DNA from: a virus | Direction: 5' to 3' (one strand) | Length of the DNA stretch: 30,799 nucleotides | Virus record (IMG/VR): IMGVR_UViG_3300031749_000026 | Span: 1-30,799 of that record | Shown here: one piece after another, positions 2,515-25,519 of the stretch | How positions within the stretch are numbered: position 1 is the stretch's first letter | Layout: each line of letters begins with the position of its first letter | Made by a program: the position numbers and the translations under genes | The notes under the pieces: model-generated | What the model was told of the DNA's origin: nothing | The model's database searches: none | What the model saw: only the letters and a program-made list of their open reading frames with translations

Positions 2515-2784
2515 ATGAAAATCATTGAGAGATACCCTGATATGGCGAACAAATGGAGAGTGAAGGTCCAACTGGACAATGGTGAGTGCGTCATCCTGAA
2601 GTTCCAGAAAGAGCCAAAGGATACAGAGGCACTGGATGAGGCACAAAGATATGTCAGCCAAACCGCAGCCCAGCAAGCGGTCATCTCTGGAGAGATGGAG
2701 AAGATGAACCTGGTCAGGGACATTCCCCTACAAGATTTGAAGATGAAGTTAGGAGTGAAGGATGGCACTGCCGACACCAGATGA
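2515..2784 (+). CDS. Small hypothetical protein of the tail region (89 aa)
   Basis: I do not recognise this family. The ATG follows a strong site (AGGAGG at 2505-2511) overlapping the end of the spike gene. The N-terminal half (residues 1-35) looks like a small beta-sheet domain (WRVKVQLDNGECVILKF). The C-terminal half is charged and helical (DTEALDEAQRYVSQTAAQQ). There is no signal peptide or membrane segment. Its end overlaps the next gene by 23 bp, so the two are probably translationally coupled. The position between fibre genes and the lysis pair suggests a minor virion or assembly role, which is inference only. Confidence 0.7.
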   Translation: MKIIERYPDMANKWRVKVQLDNGECVILKFQKEPKDTEALDEAQRYVSQTAAQQAVISGEMEKMNLVRDIPLQDLKMKLGVKDGTADTR

Positions 2785-2980
2785 TTTGAAGACAATGGAT
2801 TATGCCTTTCGGGGAGAGCCTTTTGTGGATGTTCCTTCACAATCGTCAATCGATTTGGGAACGATGGATTATGCCTTTCGGGGAGAGCCGTTCGTTAGGA
2901 ATTATAGTGGGGGAGCGCCACCGCCACCACCAACACCACCACCAACAGTTGATAGTTTGTTTTTTGGGCAAGAAATGTAA
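2762..2980 (+). CDS. Small proline-rich protein with duplicated DYAFRGEPFV motif
   Basis: This is a 72-residue protein of unknown function. It contains an exact duplication of TMDYAFRGEPFV (residues ~11-22 and ~34-45) separated by DVPSQSSIDLG, followed by a polyproline linker (PPPPPTPPPT) and a short tail SLFFGQEM. The duplication is also near-exact in DNA (2793-2828 and 2862-2897). The ATG sits inside the end of the upstream gene, with AGGAG about 8 bases before it. Tandem aromatic motifs plus a proline linker suggest a docking peptide for a virion component, but this is inference. Confidence 0.7.
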   Translation: MALPTPDDLKTMDYAFRGEPFVDVPSQSSIDLGTMDYAFRGEPFVRNYSGGAPPPPPTPPPTVDSLFFGQEM

Positions 2981-3004
2981 CATAAACAATTTTAGGAGGT
3001 TAAA

Positions 3005-3226
3005 ATGGAAATCAAAAAAATCCCAGACTTTAGACCAGACACTTATGAAATCTCGGAGGTTATTCCTCGAAGAGTGGAAAAGAAAGTCGTCTATCTTGAT
3101 GACCTCAAGGCAAATCTTGAGGGACTGTTAAGGCAGAAAGAATCACTGGAGCAGGAAATTGCCAAACTGCAGGATATGATTACACAGATAGAAAAAGTTG
3201 ATATAATGAAAGTAGAGGAAATATGA
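3005..3226 (+). CDS. Small coiled-coil hypothetical protein (73 aa)
   Basis: The start has a strong upstream site (TAGGAGGTTAAA). Residues 1-25 are mixed (KKIPDFRPDTYEISEV). Residues ~30-68 form a predicted coiled coil with heptad-spaced leucines and isoleucines (LDDLKANLEGLLRQKESLEQ). It is probably oligomeric and soluble. The stop overlaps the next start (ATGA at 3223-3226), so the two are translationally coupled. The family is not recognised. Confidence 0.7.
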   Translation: MEIKKIPDFRPDTYEISEVIPRRVEKKVVYLDDLKANLEGLLRQKESLEQEIAKLQDMITQIEKVDIMKVEEI

Positions 3227-3564
3227 AACGCATCAATGTTAAAACCAAAGTTTTAGATGTCTTTGGCAAACCAATCAAAGACCAGACAGGGGCTGAGGAG
3301 ACAGTCCAGATTGCTTTGGTTGCTCTTTTGAGAAATGTGGATTTGGATAAGTCAAAGGAGAACCGTATTTATGTGGTGATGAGCAAGATTGCGTCGGCAA
3401 AGGATGTGGTGGAGTTGGAAGAGGATGAGTTTAATCTTCTGCAAGAGGCAGTAACTTGTAATACCGCAAAGATTTATACCACAGGACAGGAAATTCCCAT
3501 TTTAAATCGTGATGAGAGAGGCTTTCTGAAGCGATATTTAGAAAGTGCCTTAAAAAGCAATTAA
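3223..3564 (+). CDS. Hypothetical phage protein (113 aa)
   Basis: Soluble protein of unrecognised family. Features seen: a beta-rich N-terminus (INVKTKVLDVFGKPIKD), a central helical part with LVALLRNVDLDKSKENRIYV, and an acidic helix (VVELEEDEFNLLQEAV). The pattern of KVLDVFGKPI...LR...ELEEDEFNLLQ resembles small proteins commonly encoded next to fibre or lysis genes of tailed phages, but I cannot name a domain. It is coupled to the upstream coiled-coil gene by a 4-bp overlap. Confidence 0.7.
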   Translation: MKRINVKTKVLDVFGKPIKDQTGAEETVQIALVALLRNVDLDKSKENRIYVVMSKIASAKDVVELEEDEFNLLQEAVTCNTAKIYTTGQEIPILNRDERGFLKRYLESALKSN

Positions 3565-5232: not shown

Positions 5233-6372
5233 ATGCCAGTCATTATTGTTGAACATCCAGACACAACTAATTCAGAACAAACTTATTTAACTTCGGCTGC
5301 TTCAGCAGGCGCTACTTCTTTGTCAGTGAAAAATACACAAGGTTTTTCCGCTAATGATTTTATTGTTGTTGGCGGAATTGGGAATGAAAACTCGGAAATT
5401 ACCAAAATCAATTCTATCTCAGGCAACAACACTTTAGTGGTTGACGCTTTAAAGTTTGATCACGGAGTGGATACACCAGTTACCTATATCAAATATAACC
5501 AGGTTAGAATTTATAGAGCCTCTTCAAAAACTGGAACTTATTCTTTAATTCTTGTTGGCATAAACATAGAAGTTGATTATCCTGATGGCACTCGCTATGA
5601 CGACACCACAGGAACATCTTCATCTTGGTATAAGGCTGCTTATTATAACTCGCTTACTGGCGTTCAATCCGATTTATCTGATCCTTTCCCCGCTACAGGC
5701 ATTACTGATTACTGTTTAAGAGGACTTCAAGATGCGGTGATTACTTTAGCCAACGATCCTTTTGAGCAGAGAATTAGAAGAGATGATATTACTCGCTGGA
5801 TTAATGAAATCTATCGTTCTGTTCAACATAAAGTGAGACAGAAAAATCTGGCTTACAGTTTAAAATACTCTGGCGAACTTCCTTTTACTCAAGGTCAAGC
5901 AGAATATGACCTACCATCAGATTTTGTTCAACTCTATAAAATAGAAGTAGCAATGGATGGTATTAGTTATCGCAACCCTACACCGCTTGATATGCGAGAC
6001 GTAGAACCGACAAGGGTGTTTACACCAGCAGAACCATATTTCTACTTCATTGAAAATAAAATTGGTTTTAAACCTACTCCCAATTCTGGAACTTACAAAC
6101 TTTGGTATTATTACACTCCTACAACCTTATCTTCCGATGCTGATGAGTTACTTTTTCCTTACAATCAATATCCTGAAATTTTTGTCAACTATGCGATGTT
6201 CCGTTTTTGTCAAATTCACAAACCAGAAAGAGTGGCAGAGTATAAGGCTTTGGTAGATGAAGCGGTTAATCGGATGCTAACCGACTTGGCTGAAAGGCAA
6301 ATTCACAAGCCAGATTTTGTGCATATTACCAGCAGTGAATATTATGAAAGTTTGTTAGATCAAGGCTTTTAA
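5233..6372 (+). CDS. Head-tail adaptor protein (P22 gp4/T7 gp11-like position)
   Basis: 379 residues. Residues ~1-150 are beta-rich with an Ig- or fibronectin-like appearance (YLTSAASAGATSLSVKNTQG; later YNQVRIYRASSKTGTY). Residues ~160-379 match the pattern of podovirus tail adaptors: a helix with IRRDDITRWINEIYRSVQHK, then YDLPSDFVQLYKIEV, then YFYFIENKIGFKPTPNSGTY and KLWYYYTPTTL, and a C-terminal helix spanning YAMFRFCQIHKPERVAEYKA. Such proteins attach under the portal and receive the tail hub. The next gene, a beta-propeller, is the expected partner. The adaptor call is strong; the N-terminal domain seems an addition compared with shorter adaptors. Confidence 0.75.
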   Translation: MPVIIVEHPDTTNSEQTYLTSAASAGATSLSVKNTQGFSANDFIVVGGIGNENSEITKINSISGNNTLVVDALKFDHGVDTPVTYIKYNQVRIYRASSKTGTYSLILVGINIEVDYPDGTRYDDTTGTSSSWYKAAYYNSLTGVQSDLSDPFPATGITDYCLRGLQDAVITLANDPFEQRIRRDDITRWINEIYRSVQHKVRQKNLAYSLKYSGELPFTQGQAEYDLPSDFVQLYKIEVAMDGISYRNPTPLDMRDVEPTRVFTPAEPYFYFIENKIGFKPTPNSGTYKLWYYYTPTTLSSDADELLFPYNQYPEIFVNYAMFRFCQIHKPERVAEYKALVDEAVNRMLTDLAERQIHKPDFVHITSSEYYESLLDQGF

Positions 6373-6380
6373 GGAGGCGT

Positions 6381-7838
6381 ATGGCTATCGTTGTTTTAAA
6401 CACCTTTGAGGGGATAAACAGATTAGCCGCTGATGATGTAACCAAGCCTTCTGAATTAAGATTGGCAATAAATTGCGATAGTGAGATTTTGGGGGCGAAA
6501 AGAAAAAGACCAGGCTATGCGAAGTTTTTAGACAATCCTGATAATTCTCCTATTCAAGGACTTTTTTATTGGATAAAAGCGGATGGGACAAAACTTCTTT
6601 TTAGAGTTTCAAATGGCAAGGTCTATAAATATCAGTTTGGTAGTGGTGCTTCTACCTGGACTTTAACTTCCAAAACTGGACTTTCAACGACAGAGAAAAT
6701 GTCTTTCAGTTTGCTAAGCGGTAACTTATTTTTTTCAAATGGCGTAGACAATATGTTTTATACATCTGATGGTTCAACTTTTACTGATGTATCAACTGGC
6801 ACTCCGCCAAAACCAAGATTTTTAAGAACTTTTCAAGGAAGAATTTATGGAGCAGGTTCAACATCAGAAGTTGGAACCCAAACTTCTGGGACTGGTCCGA
6901 GTTCTATTTATTGGTCAGCCGTTAATGATGGAACTGATTGGACAATAGATTTAACCAATCCTGCTAAAGCAGGTTGGAAATACATTGACCCAGATGAGAA
7001 TGGTAGAATAACAGGTTTGGGTAAGATTTTGGATAGGTTGATTACTTTTAAACAAGGAGCAGTGTATAAATATGATGGGTCAACCTTAACTGACTTAAAC
7101 TATGTTCCGACTACTTCTCATTTATCAATTAGCAGTTACAAGGATTATATTTTCTTTATCAATTATGATGGTATCTGGGGATACGCTGGTTCAACGCCAG
7201 AACTTTTTTCCAAACCATTAAGAGATTTTGTCAACAACATTTCAGGCAATAACTTCATAGAAGCAGCAGGGATTGTCTACAACAAACAATACTTCTGCTC
7301 GGTGGGAGATGTAACCACTGATGATGGTGAAACTTATCCTAATTGTGTTTTAGTTTTAGATTTTGATAACTCAATGTGGTATGTTCATTCTTTTGCTCAC
7401 AAACCCGTTGCTTGGACGACGGCGATAGACGAAAATAACAACTTCAAATTGTATTTTGGCGATAGTAATGGTCAGTGTTATCTTTGGAATTCAGGCACAA
7501 GCGATGATGGAAATCCAATCCAAATGGTGATGGAAACAAAAAACTTTGATGAAGGTTATCCACAAACTGATAAAAAGTATTCTAAAATGTATGTAGAAGC
7601 GAAACCGCATAATGGTTTGAAAGTCTATTACTCGGTTGATGATGGAGAGTGGCGATTGGCAGGAGAATGCGTTAATACCCTAACCAGGTTTTACTTTGAC
7701 CCTGATGTAACCAATTCTTTTCATCAGAGAATTAAGTTTAGATTGGTGGAGAGCGGAACGAATATTCAGCCAGTTGTGAGAAAAATTATCTATCACTATG
7801 ATATAAGTGGAGGTGAAGCGGGTAAAGCAAGGAGGTAA
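6381..7838 (+). CDS. Beta-propeller tail hub/nozzle protein (P22 gp10-like)
   Basis: 485 residues with repeated beta-propeller blades: DGTKLLFRVSNGKVYKYQFG, LLSGNLFFSNGVDNMFYTSD, RLITFKQGAVYKYDGS, DYIFFINYDGIWGY and NFKLYFGDSNGQCYLWNS. The N-terminus (LNTFEGINRLAADDVTKPSE) and the phrase ILGAKRKRPGYAKF match the phage stabilisation/tail-nozzle family that closes the portal channel in podoviruses. The C-terminal ~80 residues (KMYVEAKPHNGLKVYYSVDD) look like a beta-sandwich. It sits directly after the adaptor, with AAGGAGG at 6371-6377. This is a core virion component. Confidence 0.8.
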   Translation: MAIVVLNTFEGINRLAADDVTKPSELRLAINCDSEILGAKRKRPGYAKFLDNPDNSPIQGLFYWIKADGTKLLFRVSNGKVYKYQFGSGASTWTLTSKTGLSTTEKMSFSLLSGNLFFSNGVDNMFYTSDGSTFTDVSTGTPPKPRFLRTFQGRIYGAGSTSEVGTQTSGTGPSSIYWSAVNDGTDWTIDLTNPAKAGWKYIDPDENGRITGLGKILDRLITFKQGAVYKYDGSTLTDLNYVPTTSHLSISSYKDYIFFINYDGIWGYAGSTPELFSKPLRDFVNNISGNNFIEAAGIVYNKQYFCSVGDVTTDDGETYPNCVLVLDFDNSMWYVHSFAHKPVAWTTAIDENNNFKLYFGDSNGQCYLWNSGTSDDGNPIQMVMETKNFDEGYPQTDKKYSKMYVEAKPHNGLKVYYSVDDGEWRLAGECVNTLTRFYFDPDVTNSFHQRIKFRLVESGTNIQPVVRKIIYHYDISGGEAGKARR

Positions 7839-15425: not shown

Positions 15426-15700
15426 TTTTTTATCATCTCCAAAAATAATTTTAAATCACAAATAAAAAGAGGTCTCTTTCTGTCCTGTTTTATTACCAGA
15501 AAATCTTTGCCTTCTAACCACTCATATATTCTTTTGAAGTCGCCGTGTCGCACCTTACACTCACCACGCATCCCTTCTATTTCAACATCATAACCTTCAC
15601 CCGCTCCGCTCAACCATTGCCTTCTCGCTTTTAAGCCATATTGCTTGGCAAGATTAACAACAAGGTTTTCTAAGTTGTAGCCTTTGCGTCTGGTTTTCAT
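15422..15700 (-). CDS. PDDEXK nuclease, Holliday-junction-resolvase-like
   Basis: 92 residues. The order RRKGYNLENLVVNLAKQYG, then SGAGEGYDVEIEGMRGECKV gives a candidate active site E11, D38, E47 and K49, the E-D-ExK pattern of archaeal Hjc-type resolvases and other PDDEXK nucleases. A resolvase would process branched replication or packaging intermediates. It overlaps its neighbours by 4 bp on each side (15422-15425 and 15697-15700). The length is short even for Hjc (about 130 residues), but all catalytic elements seem present. It could also be a VRR-type or other small phage nuclease. Confidence 0.65.
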   Translation of the reverse strand: MKTRRKGYNLENLVVNLAKQYGLKARRQWLSGAGEGYDVEIEGMRGECKVRHGDFKRIYEWLEGKDFLVIKQDRKRPLFICDLKLFLEMIKK

Positions 15701-16387
15701 TCTTCTCCTAATGGTAATGGACTTGGTATTTTCTCCAATCTTCTTCTACCTACCTCACAATACTCGGGACTTATTTCAATCATAATATAGTTTCTGCCCA
15801 ACTTTTTAGCGACAACTGCGGTGGTGCAACTTCCCGCAAAGGGGTCAAGGACAATATCTCCTTTATTTGTAAGATAATCTATCCATACCGTCAGGGGTTT
15901 TTCTGGTTTTTGAGTGGGGTGATATCGTGGATTTTGTGGGATAGATGCTAATATATAATCTGTTGTCCCAAATGATAATTCTTGCTTAACTTTTGTGAAC
16001 CATTCTACAGATTTCATAAAATCTACTTTTCTTCCCCGTGGAACTGGATTACTTTTTATCCAAAACAAAGGGCTTCTTCCTTTCATCCCTAATTTTTCTA
16101 AAAATTCCCATACATAACTGATTTTTTTCTTATCAATGTTTATAAGGTTTTAGTGCTCTTACGCATTCTTTTAACCACTTTTGACACCATCTTAAGTAAT
16201 CTTCTTCACTCTTCCATTGTTTATCCCACTCGCCAAAATCTAAATTTATGTCATTCCCTTTATATTTTAAATTAGATGCTCTGTGAATTTCTATTTAATC
16301 ATAAAAGGCGGATCGGTAAGAACTAAGTCAATTGTTCGGTACTTCAAAACCCCTAACGCATCCCCGCACAAAATCTTGTTTTTAATC
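15697..16387 (-). pseudogene. DNA adenine/cytosine-N4 methyltransferase, broken by two frame changes
   Basis: Three reading-frame pieces together make one beta-class DNA methyltransferase. Piece 1 (to 16291) has LCGDALGVL and LVLTDPPFMIK, motif IV with the catalytic DPPF, then a stop. Piece 2 (~16290-16140) reads EIHRASNLKYKGND and FGEWDKQWKSEEDYLRWC in another frame, ending KPYKH and two stops. Piece 3 (~16139-15697) reads ISYVWEFLEKLGMKGRSP, then HPTQKPEKPLT and the SAM-binding motif DPFAGSCTT with KKLGRNYIMIEI. A segment of about 20-25 residues between ALKP and YVWEF seems missing. Intact enzymes modify N6-adenine or N4-cytosine. No function is expected unless the breaks are assembly errors. 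Confidence 0.7.
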
Positions 16388-16509
16388 TCCTCTATCCTAT
16401 ACAACCTATCCCCCAAAAATAACTTTAACACAAAGAATACCCCATAAATAACCAAAACCCACAACACTACCAACATAACCAACGCCTCTAAGCAAGACCA
16501 GAACCGCAT
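16291..16509 (-). CDS. Membrane segment fused to methyltransferase N-terminus (72 aa)
   Basis: The ATG at 16509 has a strong site (CAGGAGGTGGTAAG) lying in the end of the preceding gene. Residues 1-40 (MRFWSCLEALVMLVVLWVLV onward) are one long membrane segment followed by LKLFLGDRLYRIEEIKNKI. The last ~25 residues are the start of a DNA methyltransferase (LCGDALGVLKYRTIDLVLTD then PPFMIK). Either a small membrane gene was fused by deletion to the start of the methyltransferase, or the methyltransferase originally began near the ILCGDAL segment and this frame arose from decay. The transmembrane part may still be expressed with the lysis cassette. Confidence 0.55.
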   Translation of the reverse strand: MRFWSCLEALVMLVVLWVLVIYGVFFVLKLFLGDRLYRIEEIKNKILCGDALGVLKYRTIDLVLTDPPFMIK

Positions 16510-16510
16510 C

Positions 16511-16690
16511 TTACCACCTCCTGTTGTCCCGATAAACCAAGATTGAGAAGACCAGATAGAAGCCGAACAGCAATAGGGCAATGACACCATCCTGAACTTC
16601 TTGAACGGTTTCAGAAGTGAAAATTAACATCAGGCTTCCAAGCAATCCGAGCGATGAAAGGGCGATTGAGACGATTGAGAAGGTTTTCAT
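16511..16690 (-). CDS. Small two-segment membrane protein, holin-like (59 aa)
   Basis: The ATG at 16690 has AAAGGAGAAAA upstream. Two hydrophobic stretches are present: residues ~4-25 (FSIVSIALSSLGLLGSLMLI) and ~37-52 (GVIALLLFGFYLVFSILVY), ending in a basic tail (RDNRRW). The intervening acidic loop is TSETVQEVQD. Size and hairpin topology match class II holins. It lies right after the transglycosylase-like gene and ends 1 base before the next ATG. It is probably a lysis-cassette component; other membrane roles are possible. Confidence 0.6.
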   Translation of the reverse strand: MKTFSIVSIALSSLGLLGSLMLIFTSETVQEVQDGVIALLLFGFYLVFSILVYRDNRRW

Positions 16691-16702: not shown

Positions 16703-17074
16703 TTATTTGCAATAACCCATCTTCCTTGCCTGCACCCAAGCACACCAACCCGATGCCTTATAAATCTCATAGGCGACCCGTAGGTTCTCTTCTGGGTCAA
16801 GCAGTCTCAAACAGTTTCCCCTAACCTTGCCGCAGTGCCGAGTGTTAATCTGGGCGATTCCCAAGTCCAGCGTACCATCCTTGTTTTTGTGAACTGCTTT
16901 TGGATTCAATCCCGACTCTGCCCGAAACACCTTGATAGCGATTTCATCGTTCCAGTTATACCTTTCAATCAACTCTATGAGATAATTCCTCTCCTCTCTC
17001 GGTAGGGTGTTTCGTGAGGTGGCTGAGGATGCCAAAGGGGTTGCCTGTTTTACCTCAGCCACCCGCTGATTCAC
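16703..17074 (-). CDS. Lytic transglycosylase/lysozyme-like enzyme
   Basis: 123 residues, starting with GTG that overlaps the upstream stop (GTGA at 17071-17074). A short N-terminal linker (~25 residues) precedes a compact SLT/lysozyme-like domain: catalytic-glutamate motif AESGLNP (E53), substrate strand GIAQINTRHC (residues 72-81) and C-terminal helix with NLRVAYEIYKASGWCAWV. It would cleave peptidoglycan glycan strands. Five cysteines (e.g. HC, NC, WC, YC near the end) suggest disulfides and periplasmic action. It is sandwiched between two membrane genes, forming a lysis cassette distinct from the C39-like protein. A GTG start and overlap imply coupled translation. Confidence 0.75.
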   Translation of the reverse strand: MNQRVAEVKQATPLASSATSRNTLPREERNYLIELIERYNWNDEIAIKVFRAESGLNPKAVHKNKDGTLDLGIAQINTRHCGKVRGNCLRLLDPEENLRVAYEIYKASGWCAWVQARKMGYCK

Positions 17075-17250
17075 CCTGCCTTTTGTTTTAAAAGTTCCTC
17101 AATCTGGTTCTGCTTTTGCTGAAGTTCTGCCTTTAGGGGTTTGACATAATACTTGTAGGCGATTCCGAAACCGATTCCAACCAAAACAGCCACAAGCAGG
17201 ATAATCCCTGCTAACTTCTCATAGGCTTGTTTTAGTTTTGTTAAACTCAT
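17071..17250 (-). CDS. Small membrane protein with coiled-coil tail (59 aa)
   Basis: The ATG at 17250 has GGAAAGGAGAGAA upstream. Residues 1-12 are basic; ~13-33 form one membrane segment (LAGIILLVAVLVGIGFGIAY); the rest (~36-57) is a charged helix (KPLKAELQQKQNQIEELLKQ). An N-in, C-out orientation would put a short coiled coil in the periplasm, as for i-spanin-like (Rz-like) or holin-accessory proteins. Coupling to the transglycosylase supports a lysis role. It is too short for certainty. Confidence 0.6.
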   Translation of the reverse strand: MSLTKLKQAYEKLAGIILLVAVLVGIGFGIAYKYYVKPLKAELQQKQNQIEELLKQKAG

Positions 17251-17273: not shown

Positions 17274-17942
17274 TTATTCTTTGTGTTTACCTTTCTCATC
17301 CCAGTAGGGTAGACCTATTATACAGCCACTACCTAACTTATAACCTGAACCAAACCTACAAAAATTTTCAAACATACAACTATTACCGAAATTACAAGAA
17401 GAACCAAATGAACAGCCGTAATCAAACTTACAGGAAGAGTCAAATACACATCCATCACCAAAAAAGCATTGGTGACCGAACCTACAACCAAAACCAAATC
17501 TGCAGGAAGGACCAAATCTGCAAAGAGGTTTAAACCTACAGTCAGAACCAAACTTACACTTATTATCAAACTTACAATCTTCACCAAAATCACACCCAGA
17601 ACCAAACTCGCAAGCAAAATCAAACTTACACCCAGAACCAAACCTACAATCAGAACCAAACTCACAATAAAAGCCAAACTCACACTCATTACCAAATTCA
17701 CAATCAGGACCAAAAATGCAGTTAATGAAAATACAATAATCACCAAACCTGCTTCCAGAAGCAAACTTCTTGTTTACAAATATCTTCCTTTCTGGTTTAT
17801 CAGTAACCAAAATCTCCTCTACTTCTTCCCAATCCTCTATAAACTCATAACCAGCCGTTGCTACCTTATCACTCGGTGTAGGCTTTAACTCTTCTACTGG
17901 TTCACCTTCCAAGATTGTTCCGCTTTTAATTCTAAATTTCAT
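17274..17942 (-). CDS. Cysteine-rich hexapeptide-repeat protein (222 aa)
   Basis: I do not recognise a named family. The ATG at 17942 has a strong site (GGAAAGGAGAAAG) and is preferred over an upstream in-frame start at 17990. Residues ~1-65 are a non-repeat cap (MKFRIKSGTILEGEPVEELK; then EDWEEVEEILVTDKPERK). After two degenerate rungs and a 5-residue unit, 21 consecutive six-residue units of pattern C-x-F-(G/D)-x-x run in perfect register (e.g. CEFGSD, CRFGSG, CKFDFA), ending YKLGSG CIIG. A period of 6 fits a triangular left-handed beta-helix better than the 5-residue pentapeptide fold. Stacked cysteine and phenylalanine ladders are expected. A DNA-mimic, metal-binding or surface role is possible but unproven. 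Confidence 0.75.
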   Translation of the reverse strand: MKFRIKSGTILEGEPVEELKPTPSDKVATAGYEFIEDWEEVEEILVTDKPERKIFVNKKFASGSRFGDYCIFINCIFGPDCEFGNECEFGFYCEFGSDCRFGSGCKFDFACEFGSGCDFGEDCKFDNKCKFGSDCRFKPLCRFGPSCRFGFGCRFGHQCFFGDGCVFDSSCKFDYGCSFGSSCNFGNSCMFENFCRFGSGYKLGSGCIIGLPYWDEKGKHKE

Positions 17943-17955
17943 CTTTCTCCTTTCC

Positions 17956-22764: not shown

Positions 22765-23205
22765 ATGGACTTCTCTAAAATTCCACAAAGTTTGTTAGAT
22801 ACTCTTACCCTAAATGAAAAGTTGTGGCTGAAATATTATCTTGAGACGAGAAATAAGACAGAGGCAGCAGTTAGGGCTTTTGGAATAGAAGACAGAATAA
22901 AAGCCAGTCGGGTCGGAGAGGCGATGTCTCGGAGGAAGAGGGTAAGGCGAGTTTTGAATTACCATCTTATTGAGAATGAGAATTTGGCTGAGATGAAGTT
23001 GAAAGAGGCTCTGATAGAAGAGATTTTTGAGAAAGGCGCAACCAATGCCCCTGAAAGGCAGGTTAGAATCAAGGCGATTGAACTTTTGATGAAGATGAAA
23101 GGGATTTTACCTACTGGTAAAACCAAATCAAAAGAGAAAGAAGAAAGTTGGAAGGATTCTCTTGAGATAAGGATGGACGATGCCCCGAGTGATCATTCCA
23201 CATGA
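22765..23205 (+). CDS. terS: Terminase small subunit-like protein
   Basis: 146 residues. Residues ~14-70 match the DNA-binding HTH pattern of small terminases: LTLNEKLWLKYYLETRNKTE, AAVRAFG and RVGEAMSRRKRVRRVL. A helical oligomerisation region (ENLAEMKLKEALIEEIFEKG) and a charged C-terminus follow. It would recognise phage DNA and feed it to TerL. It overlaps TerL by 26 bp, the normal terS-terL order. The ribosome site upstream is weak, so coupling to 22343 is likely. Confidence 0.75.
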   Translation: MDFSKIPQSLLDTLTLNEKLWLKYYLETRNKTEAAVRAFGIEDRIKASRVGEAMSRRKRVRRVLNYHLIENENLAEMKLKEALIEEIFEKGATNAPERQVRIKAIELLMKMKGILPTGKTKSKEKEESWKDSLEIRMDDAPSDHST

Positions 23206-25519
23206 ATATCAAAAGCGTGTTTTACTTTCTAAAAAGCGATTTGTCGTTGCAATAGCAGGTATTCAAGGTGGTAAAACTCTTTGTGGTGTTTTGTGGTTAA
23301 TTCAAGAAATTAAGAAAAATCCCAGAGGCACTTTTTTGGTTGGCGCTCCCTCTTTTAAAATTTTAAATCAGTCCACCTTGGAAAAGATTTTTGAATTGAT
23401 GCCAGAAGGAGTTTGGGGTTCGTATAACAAGATGGAGCAGGTTTATCGTCTTAAAAGTGGAGGGAAAATCTTTTTTCGAAGTTTGGAATCGCCAGATAGC
23501 ATTGAAGGAATGACTGCCCATGCTGCCTGGTTAGACGAAGCGGGTCAGATGAAATATCGAGCTTGGGTTAATGTTTTGAGCCGAGTTTCCGCCACTAATG
23601 GACGAGTTTTAATCACAACCTCTCCTTACTGTTATGACGAGAAAACAGAAATTTATACAAGGAATGGTTGGAAGAAGTTTGGTGAGTTGACTGATGATGA
23701 TGAGGTTTTTGCTTGTAATGAGAATGGAGAAGGTTGGTTTGAGAAACCTCAAGAGATTGTTTGGCAAAGATATAAAGGCAAGATGTTTCATTTTAAGGGA
23801 CACGCTATAGATTTGTTGGTCACTCCTAATCATCGCATTTTGTATAAAAACTCTAACAGATTTTATATCAAAACTGCGGAACATTTTTTTAAACTGAAAA
23901 ACAGATATTTATCAATTCCTAAAGCCGTATTTCCAAAAATTCAAGAACAGGAGTTTTTTGTCTTGCCTCCTGTTGAAAATAAATGTCGCATATCAAAACC
24001 AATAAAAATCAATATGAAAGATTGGCTGGCTTTTTTGGGATGGTTTTTGTCAGAAGGTGGGATTAGAAAAAAAAGAAATCAATATCAAGTATATATTTCT
24101 CAAAAAGAGGATGAGAAGTGGGAAATTCTCAAGTCAGATTTAGAAAAACTGCCTTTTAAGTTTAGTTATAATAAAAAATCAGGTTTATTCCTTTGCTCTA
24201 ATAAACAACTTTGGAGTTATCTCAAAAAATTGGGGAACAAATACACCAAATATATCCCCAATGAATTTAAGTTTGTTGGGAAAAATAATTTGATGGTTTT
24301 GATAGATAGGATGATTTTGGGAGATGGTTCTTATAGAAAGAATGGTAGAAAGGGATTTTCTTATTATACAGTCTCTAAAAGACTAGCCGAGGATTTTCAA
24401 GAGGTCTGTATGCTTTGTGGTATTCCTACTAAAATTTCCGAACGCAAACAAGCGGATTCTTGTATCCAAGGTAGGATAATTAAGGCAACAATGTTTCATA
24501 TCACAGAGAGAGCAAGGAAACGGGCGATGGTTAAAGAACGAAGGATTGTTGATTATGATGGTTATATCGGTTGTGTGGCTGTGTCTACAGGATTGATTTT
24601 AGTAAGGCGTAATGGAGAAGAATGTATTAGTGGAAATACTGTCAACTGGCTGTATAAACAGATTTATCAGAAAGTGAAAAACAAAGAGTTGGGTTATGAA
24701 AACTTTGAGATCGTTGAATGGGAAAGTATTCACAATCCCTACTTTCCTAAAGAAAATTACGAACACGCCAGGATAGTTTTACCCTTGTCCGAGTTTGAAA
24801 GGAAATACAAGGGAATGTTTCGTAGAATGCAAGGACTGGTTTATGAAGATATTTTTGATGAGCAGGGTAATATCAGAAATGTCGTTTCAGATGTTCCCAA
24901 GTTTCAAAAAGTAATTTGCGGAATTGACTGGGGATACCGAGATCCAACAGCGATTGCTTTTTTGGGAATTACGGAGAATGGACAGGTTTATCTTTTTGAC
25001 GAGGTCTATAAGAGCGGTTTGACCATCCTTGATGTCATTTCAATTTTGAAGGAGAAGGTTTTGGAAAATAGAGTTGGTTTTGTATACGCTGGTAGAGATC
25101 AACCAGGCTATATTGACGAGTTGAATCTCAAGGGCATTCCTACTATGGCTGCTAACAATGAAATCTTTTTTGGGATTGGAAGAGTGCGGGCTTTAATTCG
25201 GATGGGTCGTTTTTTTATCCACCGAAGATGTATTAATGCTCTTGAAGAATTTACATTGTATGTTTACAAAGAAAGTGATAAAATGGTAGAAGAACCAGCG
25301 GATGAAAATAATCATATGATGGATGCAATCAGATATGCCATTGCTTCACACCCCGAGTTTATGCAAATTGAAAATGAAGGGAAAGTTTATTCCGCCGACC
25401 AAAAAACCAATGAATTTTGGAATGAAGTGAAACAAGACATTGAAAAGAGTTATCAAAGATTAAAGTTTGGGGATTATGATGAAGAAGATTATTGGAATAT
25501 GATACAAGAGGTAATATGA
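23180..25519 (+). CDS. terL: Terminase large subunit interrupted by an intein
   Basis: 779 residues, of which 443 remain after removal of the intein (151-486), a normal TerL size. The ATPase has Walker A AGIQGGKT (26-33), Walker B AAWLDE (115-120) and coupling motif TTSP (146-149), with the intein inserted two residues later. The nuclease is RNase-H-like with D583 (GIDWGYRDPTA), D640 (AGRDQPG) and D715 (ENNHMMDAIRYAI). TerL drives DNA into the procapsid through the portal and cuts at the end. Splicing restores SPY-TVNWLYKQ. The start is set by overlap with TerS and GGATAAGG-like bases. Its stop overlaps the next ATG (ATGA). Confidence 0.9.
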   Translation: MPRVIIPHEYQKRVLLSKKRFVVAIAGIQGGKTLCGVLWLIQEIKKNPRGTFLVGAPSFKILNQSTLEKIFELMPEGVWGSYNKMEQVYRLKSGGKIFFRSLESPDSIEGMTAHAAWLDEAGQMKYRAWVNVLSRVSATNGRVLITTSPYCYDEKTEIYTRNGWKKFGELTDDDEVFACNENGEGWFEKPQEIVWQRYKGKMFHFKGHAIDLLVTPNHRILYKNSNRFYIKTAEHFFKLKNRYLSIPKAVFPKIQEQEFFVLPPVENKCRISKPIKINMKDWLAFLGWFLSEGGIRKKRNQYQVYISQKEDEKWEILKSDLEKLPFKFSYNKKSGLFLCSNKQLWSYLKKLGNKYTKYIPNEFKFVGKNNLMVLIDRMILGDGSYRKNGRKGFSYYTVSKRLAEDFQEVCMLCGIPTKISERKQADSCIQGRIIKATMFHITERARKRAMVKERRIVDYDGYIGCVAVSTGLILVRRNGEECISGNTVNWLYKQIYQKVKNKELGYENFEIVEWESIHNPYFPKENYEHARIVLPLSEFERKYKGMFRRMQGLVYEDIFDEQGNIRNVVSDVPKFQKVICGIDWGYRDPTAIAFLGITENGQVYLFDEVYKSGLTILDVISILKEKVLENRVGFVYAGRDQPGYIDELNLKGIPTMAANNEIFFGIGRVRALIRMGRFFIHRRCINALEEFTLYVYKESDKMVEEPADENNHMMDAIRYAIASHPEFMQIENEGKVYSADQKTNEFWNEVKQDIEKSYQRLKFGDYDEEDYWNMIQEVI
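23630..24637 (+). mobile_element. Intein with LAGLIDADG homing endonuclease in TerL (336 aa)
   Basis: It starts with C151 (CYDEKTEIYTRNGWKKFGEL, block A), has block B TPNH at 215-218 (H218), two DOD endonuclease motifs LAFLGWFLSEGG (283-294) and LIDRMILGDGS (374-384) with acidic residues E292 and D382, and a block F/G end VRRNGEECISGN (residues 475-486) followed by T487. The terminal N486 and +1 Thr are canonical, but the penultimate residue is Gly rather than His. The endonuclease probably targets the intein-free terL codons for the TTSP motif, a conserved site. Confidence 0.9.

Follow-up and report, generated by a model that had tools for sequence, protein, structure and literature searches.

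The window analysed here, the whole 30,799-nucleotide stretch of IMG/VR virus record IMGVR_UViG_3300031749_000026, carries on its minus strand a gene for a 222-residue protein that contains a long six-residue repeat of Cys and Phe. The gene looks real, since its ATG at position 17942 has an AAGGAG sequence 4 bases upstream and since the protein has protein-level relatives in other phage contigs. The features of the gene and its immediate neighbours, with the evidence for each, are as follows.

17274..17942, minus strand: the whole open reading frame, 222 codons plus stop (translation; protein-level relatives)
17947..17952, minus strand: ribosome-binding site AAGGAG, separated from the ATG by 4 bases (read from the sequence)
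17772..17942, minus strand: N-terminal segment, residues 1-57 (family alignment and AlphaFold2 model)
17307..17771, minus strand: the complete solenoid, residues 58-212, beginning with K58-K-F-A-S-G and ending with the last hexad (AlphaFold2 strands; invariant residues)
17721..17735, minus strand: five-residue unit C70-I-F-I-N (present in 11 of 11 members)
17343..17720, minus strand: 21 uninterrupted C-x-F hexads, residues 75-200 (period-6 run count)
17277..17324, minus strand: C-terminal cap C-x-x-x-x-P-Y-W-D-E-K-G-K-H, residues 207-222 (alignment)
17074..17250, minus strand: next gene, 59 residues, weak match to Rz-like spanins, E 0.004 (profile match)
16706..17074, minus strand: SLT transglycosylase-like gene (profile match)

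Three other places in the window deserve mention. In the terminase large subunit gene (23180-25516, plus strand), a LAGLIDADG-type insert, probably an intein, separates the N-terminal from the C-terminal part. A large open reading frame (521-2506) near the structural genes contains, at 1600-1940 on the plus strand, tandem repeats of 72/147 bases that encode Asn/Tyr-rich repeats. On the minus strand, 15700-16086 and 16294-16590 match one 466-residue open reading frame (positions 701-2098 of contig L003) and its neighbour in related contigs, and they look like a DNA methylase in pieces.

The repeat that a sequence-only reading of this DNA had pointed out is real. Exactly 21 consecutive C-x-F units with a period of six run from C75 to C195, and the longest such run in 2000 shuffles of the window protein was 3. 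That reading had written the unit as C-x-F-G-x-x; C-x-F is indeed present in 21 of 21 units, but the Gly at position 4 is found in only 15, with Asp in four and Lys and Glu in one each. It was right that the period is six and not the five of pentapeptide repeats, the sole break being the lone five-residue unit C70-N74, which immediately precedes the run and has a counterpart in all 11 family members. After the run come Y-K-L-G-S-G and then C-I-I-G-L-P. The array as a whole comprises 23 units and 138 residues with a net charge of -4, and the protein has 23 Cys in its 222 residues at a fixed spacing. Six residues at the start of the solenoid (F60, F66, C70, F72, C75, and F77) are invariant in the aligned family. 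In the N-terminal segment, the family alignment shows a conserved D-K-P-x-x-K-[IV]-F, and residues 1-16 of the window protein are modelled by AlphaFold2 (AF2) with a pLDDT of <50.

The window-type relatives in IMG/VR have in common an N-terminal D-K-P-x-x-K-[IV]-F-[VIF]-N and the cap C-x4-P-Y-W. Our alignment contains 11 proteins, three of them from one contig (L001), and excludes L005, which is cut by the contig end, and L039. In all 11 members, the stretch from the first C to PYW (PLG in one member) is an exact multiple of six residues and amounts to 4 to 23 units. Positions 1, 3, and 4 are C, F, and G in 92%, 91%, and 69% of units, respectively, across nine window-type arrays. The array appears to be a mosaic. 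Between the window and the syntenic phage contig L002, 100-base bins outside the array are 67 to 98% identical, most of them 88 to 98% and the lowest 67% and 79%, whereas the array DNA (17300-17699) is 64 to 73% identical. Only units 1, 4, 5, 7, and 10 exceed 15 of 18 identical bases with L002, and beyond unit 1 the order of the matches is not kept. When the units of the window array are compared with one another, the best matches reach 11 to 16 of 18 bases. Window units 14 to 23, however, match units 11 to 20 of L001 in order and at 15 to 18 of 18 bases, although blastp with open reading frames of ≥45 residues linked L001 (8.7 kb) to the window nowhere but in the repeat gene and the frames overlapping it. 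Because the array diverges from that of the syntenic L002 while its last ten units match those of the otherwise different L001, we read this as a putative exchange of array blocks between phages, in which the outward positions would change, the C and F positions being conserved.

L001 has three paralogous Cys/Phe hexad genes (2122-2736, 2749-3291, and 5944-6453), two of them in tandem. Two leaders, M-K-I-T-K-[DE]-[QE]-I-L-E-N-L and M-K-N-Y-I-x-L-D-G-K-K-I-E-I-S, occur on window-type proteins and again on proteins lacking an array (L009, 7344-7811 and 9893-10378), in the manner of a mobile tag at the N terminus. Two matches were set aside: the sole genome-contig match, L013, has a C-S-T-G-A-G array and is no relative, and the match in Streptococcus phage YS34-rum is a low-complexity frame.

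The sequence-only reading also held that the repeat differs from the usual left-handed hexapeptide, and this we could not uphold. Shifted by two residues, the unit reads F-G-x-x-C-x, which is hexapeptide grammar, and the Pfam Hexapep profile PF00132 matches the window protein at 30.5 bits against a gathering score of 27. The profile search that had been proposed as a check therefore places the protein in a known repeat family by score; in the letter of the motif it does not, as no hexad fits the strict form [LIV]-[GAED]-x2-[STAV]-x. Since 22 hexads fit once F and C are allowed, the repeat is, to judge from its sequence, a hexapeptide variant in core composition and not a foreign repeat. Hexapep is listed at an E value of ≤1 for 10 of the 11 family members, and in a separate scan of eight relatives, two do not list it; such modest scores count against our reading. 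A sequence search of the PDB (E ≤ 1) returned 20 structures, of which one is a phosphate transporter and 19 have hexapeptide or left-handed-helix protein names and, by those names, are presumably of that class. In the best match, the LpxA-type 3t57 (whole-sequence E value of 7.5e-6), F lies over I/L, G over G, and C over C/S. The likeness to left-handed β-helices thus consists of the period, the Gly after the large core residue, and the alignment register, and the difference is that the window protein has Phe for Leu/Ile/Val and Cys for Ser/Thr/Ala/Val almost throughout. The array is also matched by phrog_5353 (24.4 bits). Among the papers listed by our literature searches, we recognised no account of such phage C-x-F hexads.

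The left-handed β-helix superfamily includes acyltransferases, and the best NCBIfam profiles for the window protein (LpxD, LpxA, and NeuD) are of this superfamily, although all score far under their cut-offs; the related gene of Aeromonas phage AeroV_348 is even annotated as an acetyltransferase. An acyltransferase is nevertheless the least probable of the functions that we considered. According to PMC3046976, the members with crystal structures have in common a catalytic His that sits in a loop projecting from the helix; the 23-unit window array has no loop insertion. Across the 11 members, there are 0 to 1 His per array, none of them conserved, and arrays of anything from 4 to 23 units occur. 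With no loop, no conserved His in the array, and a length that is free to vary, the window protein is in all likelihood not an enzyme.

AF2 was run on the window protein with the 11-member alignment, the structure prediction being another check that had been proposed. The best model has a mean pLDDT of 90.3 and a pTM of 0.84, with array blocks at 95 to 98, and the five models range from 86.2 to 90.3. Strands recur every six residues, and the predicted fold implies the ladders of Cys and Phe in a prism that the sequence-only reading had envisaged. The hand of the coil is where sequence and model disagree. We judged it from structure comparisons, not from model coordinates. Foldseek matched the window model to pentapeptide proteins and right-handed helices with weak E values; VIA-align gave the synthetic solenoid 4yei as the best match (Z of 14.1 and rmsd of 3.0 over 184 residues), with pentapeptide proteins at a Z of about 11 to 12. 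No left-handed structure is among the best 50 matches listed, which does not in itself exclude that hand. The model of a relative, L044, superimposes on bactofilin 6rib_A with a Z of 13.0 and an rmsd of 1.8 Å over 101 of 101 residues, and it matches the putative acetyltransferase 3c8v with a Z of 12.2 and an rmsd of 11.5; we take this combination of a high Z with a large rmsd as the mark of the opposite hand. For both models, the best comparisons of low rmsd are thus with right-handed solenoids, and taken at face value, this would contradict a left-handed reading.

The protein may then be a right-handed triangular hexapeptide solenoid with bactofilin-like geometry and a Phe/Cys core whose class the profiles mistake for left-handed; bactofilins themselves are right-handed three-sided helices (PMC9507126). 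We regard this as a real but lesser possibility. Two papers counsel against relying on the predicted right hand: AF2 is reported to produce confident but unrealistic β-solenoids from repeats (PMC11795689) and to favour the right hand, AF2-based design having yielded only right-handed β-solenoids (PMC12775518). The L044 model is in addition poor, with a mean pLDDT of 73.6 for the best of five models and 41.4 for the worst. The YdcK-type solenoid (PF18836) and bactofilin (PF04519) resemble the window array in having a period of six, but in their hexads (V-S-G-D-A-R) the Gly comes two places after the core residue, whereas in the window protein it follows Phe directly, just as the left-handed motif has it. 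A Pfam search with the window protein lists neither profile at an E value of ≤1, and bactofilin is absent from the 11 Pfam families matched by the aligned window-type members; phiRM10 gp34, in which G and Val are two places apart, matches bactofilin at 40.4 bits. Pentapeptide proteins (MfpA, Qnr, and AlbG) have a similar small-x-large core pattern but a period of five (A-[DN]-L-x-x) and a four-sided coil, and no pentapeptide family is listed by Pfam for the window protein at an E value of ≤1. Given that Gly directly follows the large core residue, and given the Hexapep match, we consider a left-handed coil somewhat likelier than a right-handed one.

In a triangular prism, three hexads would make one coil, and the lack of a signal for such coils counts against this picture. 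The window array shows no 18-residue periodicity (lag 3, p 0.41), and only one of ten arrays tested (L004) reached a p of 0.001 at lag 3. In the pooled sister arrays described below, identity is in excess at lags 1 to 4 and falls off with distance, a pattern consistent with local duplication but not with a three-unit coil. The number of units modulo 3 is not constant across members either (23, 20, 14, 20, 20, 12, 14, 16, 12, 11, and 4 units).

Searching viral contigs with DNA patterns for the hexad revealed further arrays, whose counts are lower bounds. At least 149 distinct open reading frames came from the C-x-F search, and sorting by pattern divided them into at least 70 of a sister family, at least 9 of the window type, and at least 70 others; the search also returns low-complexity frames, and L009 and L039, sorted as others, are of the window type by eye. 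As a rough control, the period-5 pattern C-x-F-G-x gave 22 stretches, and the 11 open reading frames inspected were low-complexity frames without the ends of the family. The sister family (70 distinct open reading frames) tends to have an N-terminal segment with M-K-K-Y-T-Q-E-E-F-D-A-L-P and C-P-T-G-D-Y-S and the unit C-S-F-G-E-x, and its arrays have C, F, and G at positions 1, 3, and 4 in 91%, 95%, and 80% of cases. Many of its members have an end domain of ~75 residues, with R-C-G-C-F-x-G-T-L-x-E-F, that is absent from the window protein. Among 119 C-x-F open reading frames, a filter found this domain in 48 and PYW/PFW in 18 (window type included), the remaining 53 having neither or being cut. 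The spacing C-x4-P-[YF]-W is common to the window protein and C-x-F arrays bearing the other N-terminal segment, and the link between the two groups is the array plus this cap. The end domain is matched by phrog_7964 and phrog_20532, which, like phrog_5353, are PHROG families without an assigned function, and among 398 bacterial genomes of one phylum it was found in 2.

The same end domain follows repeats of quite different kinds. A search by this domain, with a query of nine rows, eight of them C-x-F, gave 56 loci and 51 distinct open reading frames. C-x-F hexads are the commonest repeat among these (27), ahead of V-x-G-[DN]-A-x (12), pentapeptides (6), and A-x-L-G (3); N-x-L-G and C-S-x-L-R-D occur once each, and in one frame no repeat was recognised. 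None of 75 classified open reading frames mixes repeat types at the threshold used. phiRM10 gp34, of the V-x-G-D-A-R type, matches the Pfam YdcK solenoid at 137 bits, and the end domain behind its YdcK/bactofilin-like hexads is the one that also follows many C-x-F arrays. On a tree of the end domain, which has 75 columns, many open forks, and one long row (L251) and which includes 72 of 75 labelled rows from 79 distinct open reading frames, no fewer than 10 changes of repeat type are required for six groups, against a shuffled mean of 21.9. The sample leans to C-x-F, most loci having been found by that pattern and the domain query being made up largely of such rows. If this poorly resolved tree is right, repeat types would have been swapped more than once in the sister family. 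The gene of AeroV_348 (L197, 4863-5423) has A-S-V-G-E-x hexads, the same letters as C-S-F-G-E-x except that Ala replaces Cys and Val replaces Phe, and this hexapeptide rod carries a related-looking end domain; its acetyltransferase label is probably wrong. Five further contigs (L261, L263, L281, L284, and L008) have A-x-V-G or C-x-L-G arrays before a related-looking end with I-G-C and then I-x-x-W, which is perhaps a further branch of the end-domain family.

That related phage proteins have such different rods before one end domain suggests an exchangeable rod and not an enzyme. Since the sister arrays with this domain use Val/Ala, Leu/Ala, Asn/Leu, and pentapeptide cores, the chemistry of the core would not be the function. 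A bolder view is that the end domain was kept while non-homologous repeats, five or six residues long and of either left- or right-handed grammar, took the place of the whole solenoid repeatedly, so that the Phe/Cys hexad would be a new core, possibly right-handed, with hand and core both neutral to function; we hold this to be rather unlikely. The end domain on which the repeat types are swapped is not part of the window protein, and this counts against our reading.

Metal storage had been raised as a possible function, and the 23 Cys at a fixed spacing would speak for a store of metal or thiols built on the cysteine ladder. We found no support for this and consider it very improbable, though not quite as much so as an acyltransferase. 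Ala or Asn takes the Cys position in sister arrays of related phages, which disfavours a role of the thiols. A CCCH zinc finger has three Cys and one His per finger; the zf-CCCH_2 and zf-CCCH_tandem matches of the window protein are under the cut-off, and the His of that motif is lacking. The Knotted Solenoid of Brevundimonas (PDB 9RDS, 9QIX, and 9SOJ) is likewise triangular with conserved Phe and Cys, and its structures have conserved close Cys pairs without disulfides (PMC13123833). It is a bacterial protein of ~14 kDa, marked by a skip-and-backtrack order of its coils and a 3_1 knot, in which a Cys follows Phe by three residues, one per coil, where coils 2 to 4 begin. This sets it apart from the window protein, where Cys comes four residues after Phe in nearly every hexad.

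The neighbours of the array genes point to recombination in some phages. Five of eight flanked window-type loci (L001, L009, L010, L011, and L012) have a phage exonuclease gene no more than about 4.2 kb away, directly upstream of the array gene in L001 and L009, and Erf, Sak4-like, or SSB genes are also near the array gene in some of these five. phiRM10 gp34 is near Mu Gam-like and Rad52 genes, and the AeroV_348 array gene follows that for DNA polymerase I. Such surroundings would suit a DNA mimic or nuclease inhibitor of a phage recombination module, and DNA mimicry had been raised for the window protein. The charge of the array, however, speaks against it: the net charge is -4 over 138 residues in the window and -1 to -14 in relatives, and the better sampled sister arrays have means of -2.9 to -4.4 per 100 residues. 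Mimicry is thus not favoured and has no support in the window protein, and we think it improbable in general, if possible for some relatives. No recombination gene was found among the ten window genes scanned, in the open reading frames of L004, which were read by eye, or in those of L002 that were looked at, and for the window this counts against the mimic as well as against a recombination role in our own reading.

The explanation that we prefer, with moderate confidence, is that the window protein is a cytosolic phage β-solenoid of hexads with left-handed grammar, a capped rod that would have no active site and would bind a partner. Phe would occupy the inward position usually taken by Leu/Ile/Val, and Cys would occupy that usually taken by Ser/Thr/Ala/Val. 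Ahead of the rod stands the conserved N-terminal segment, and C-x4-P-Y-W forms its C-terminal cap. Such a rigid rod without catalysis would most likely bind a partner protein in the infected cell through its changing outward residues, and in several phages it may be part of a recombination and replication module.

In conclusion, the earlier observation of a Cys/Phe hexad repeat is confirmed and its interpretation partly supported. A near-pure Phe/Cys hexad core is an unusual solution to the packing of a solenoid core, and because its hand is disputed between sequence profile and AlphaFold2, a single structure would test the reported AF2 bias. In addition, the acetyltransferase-type name that one phage protein bears probably needs to be corrected. 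The finding of one phage end domain behind several unrelated solenoids is more surprising than the Phe/Cys core: the sister family is a natural set in which different types of solenoid stand before the same end domain, and what is required of the rod thereby becomes testable.
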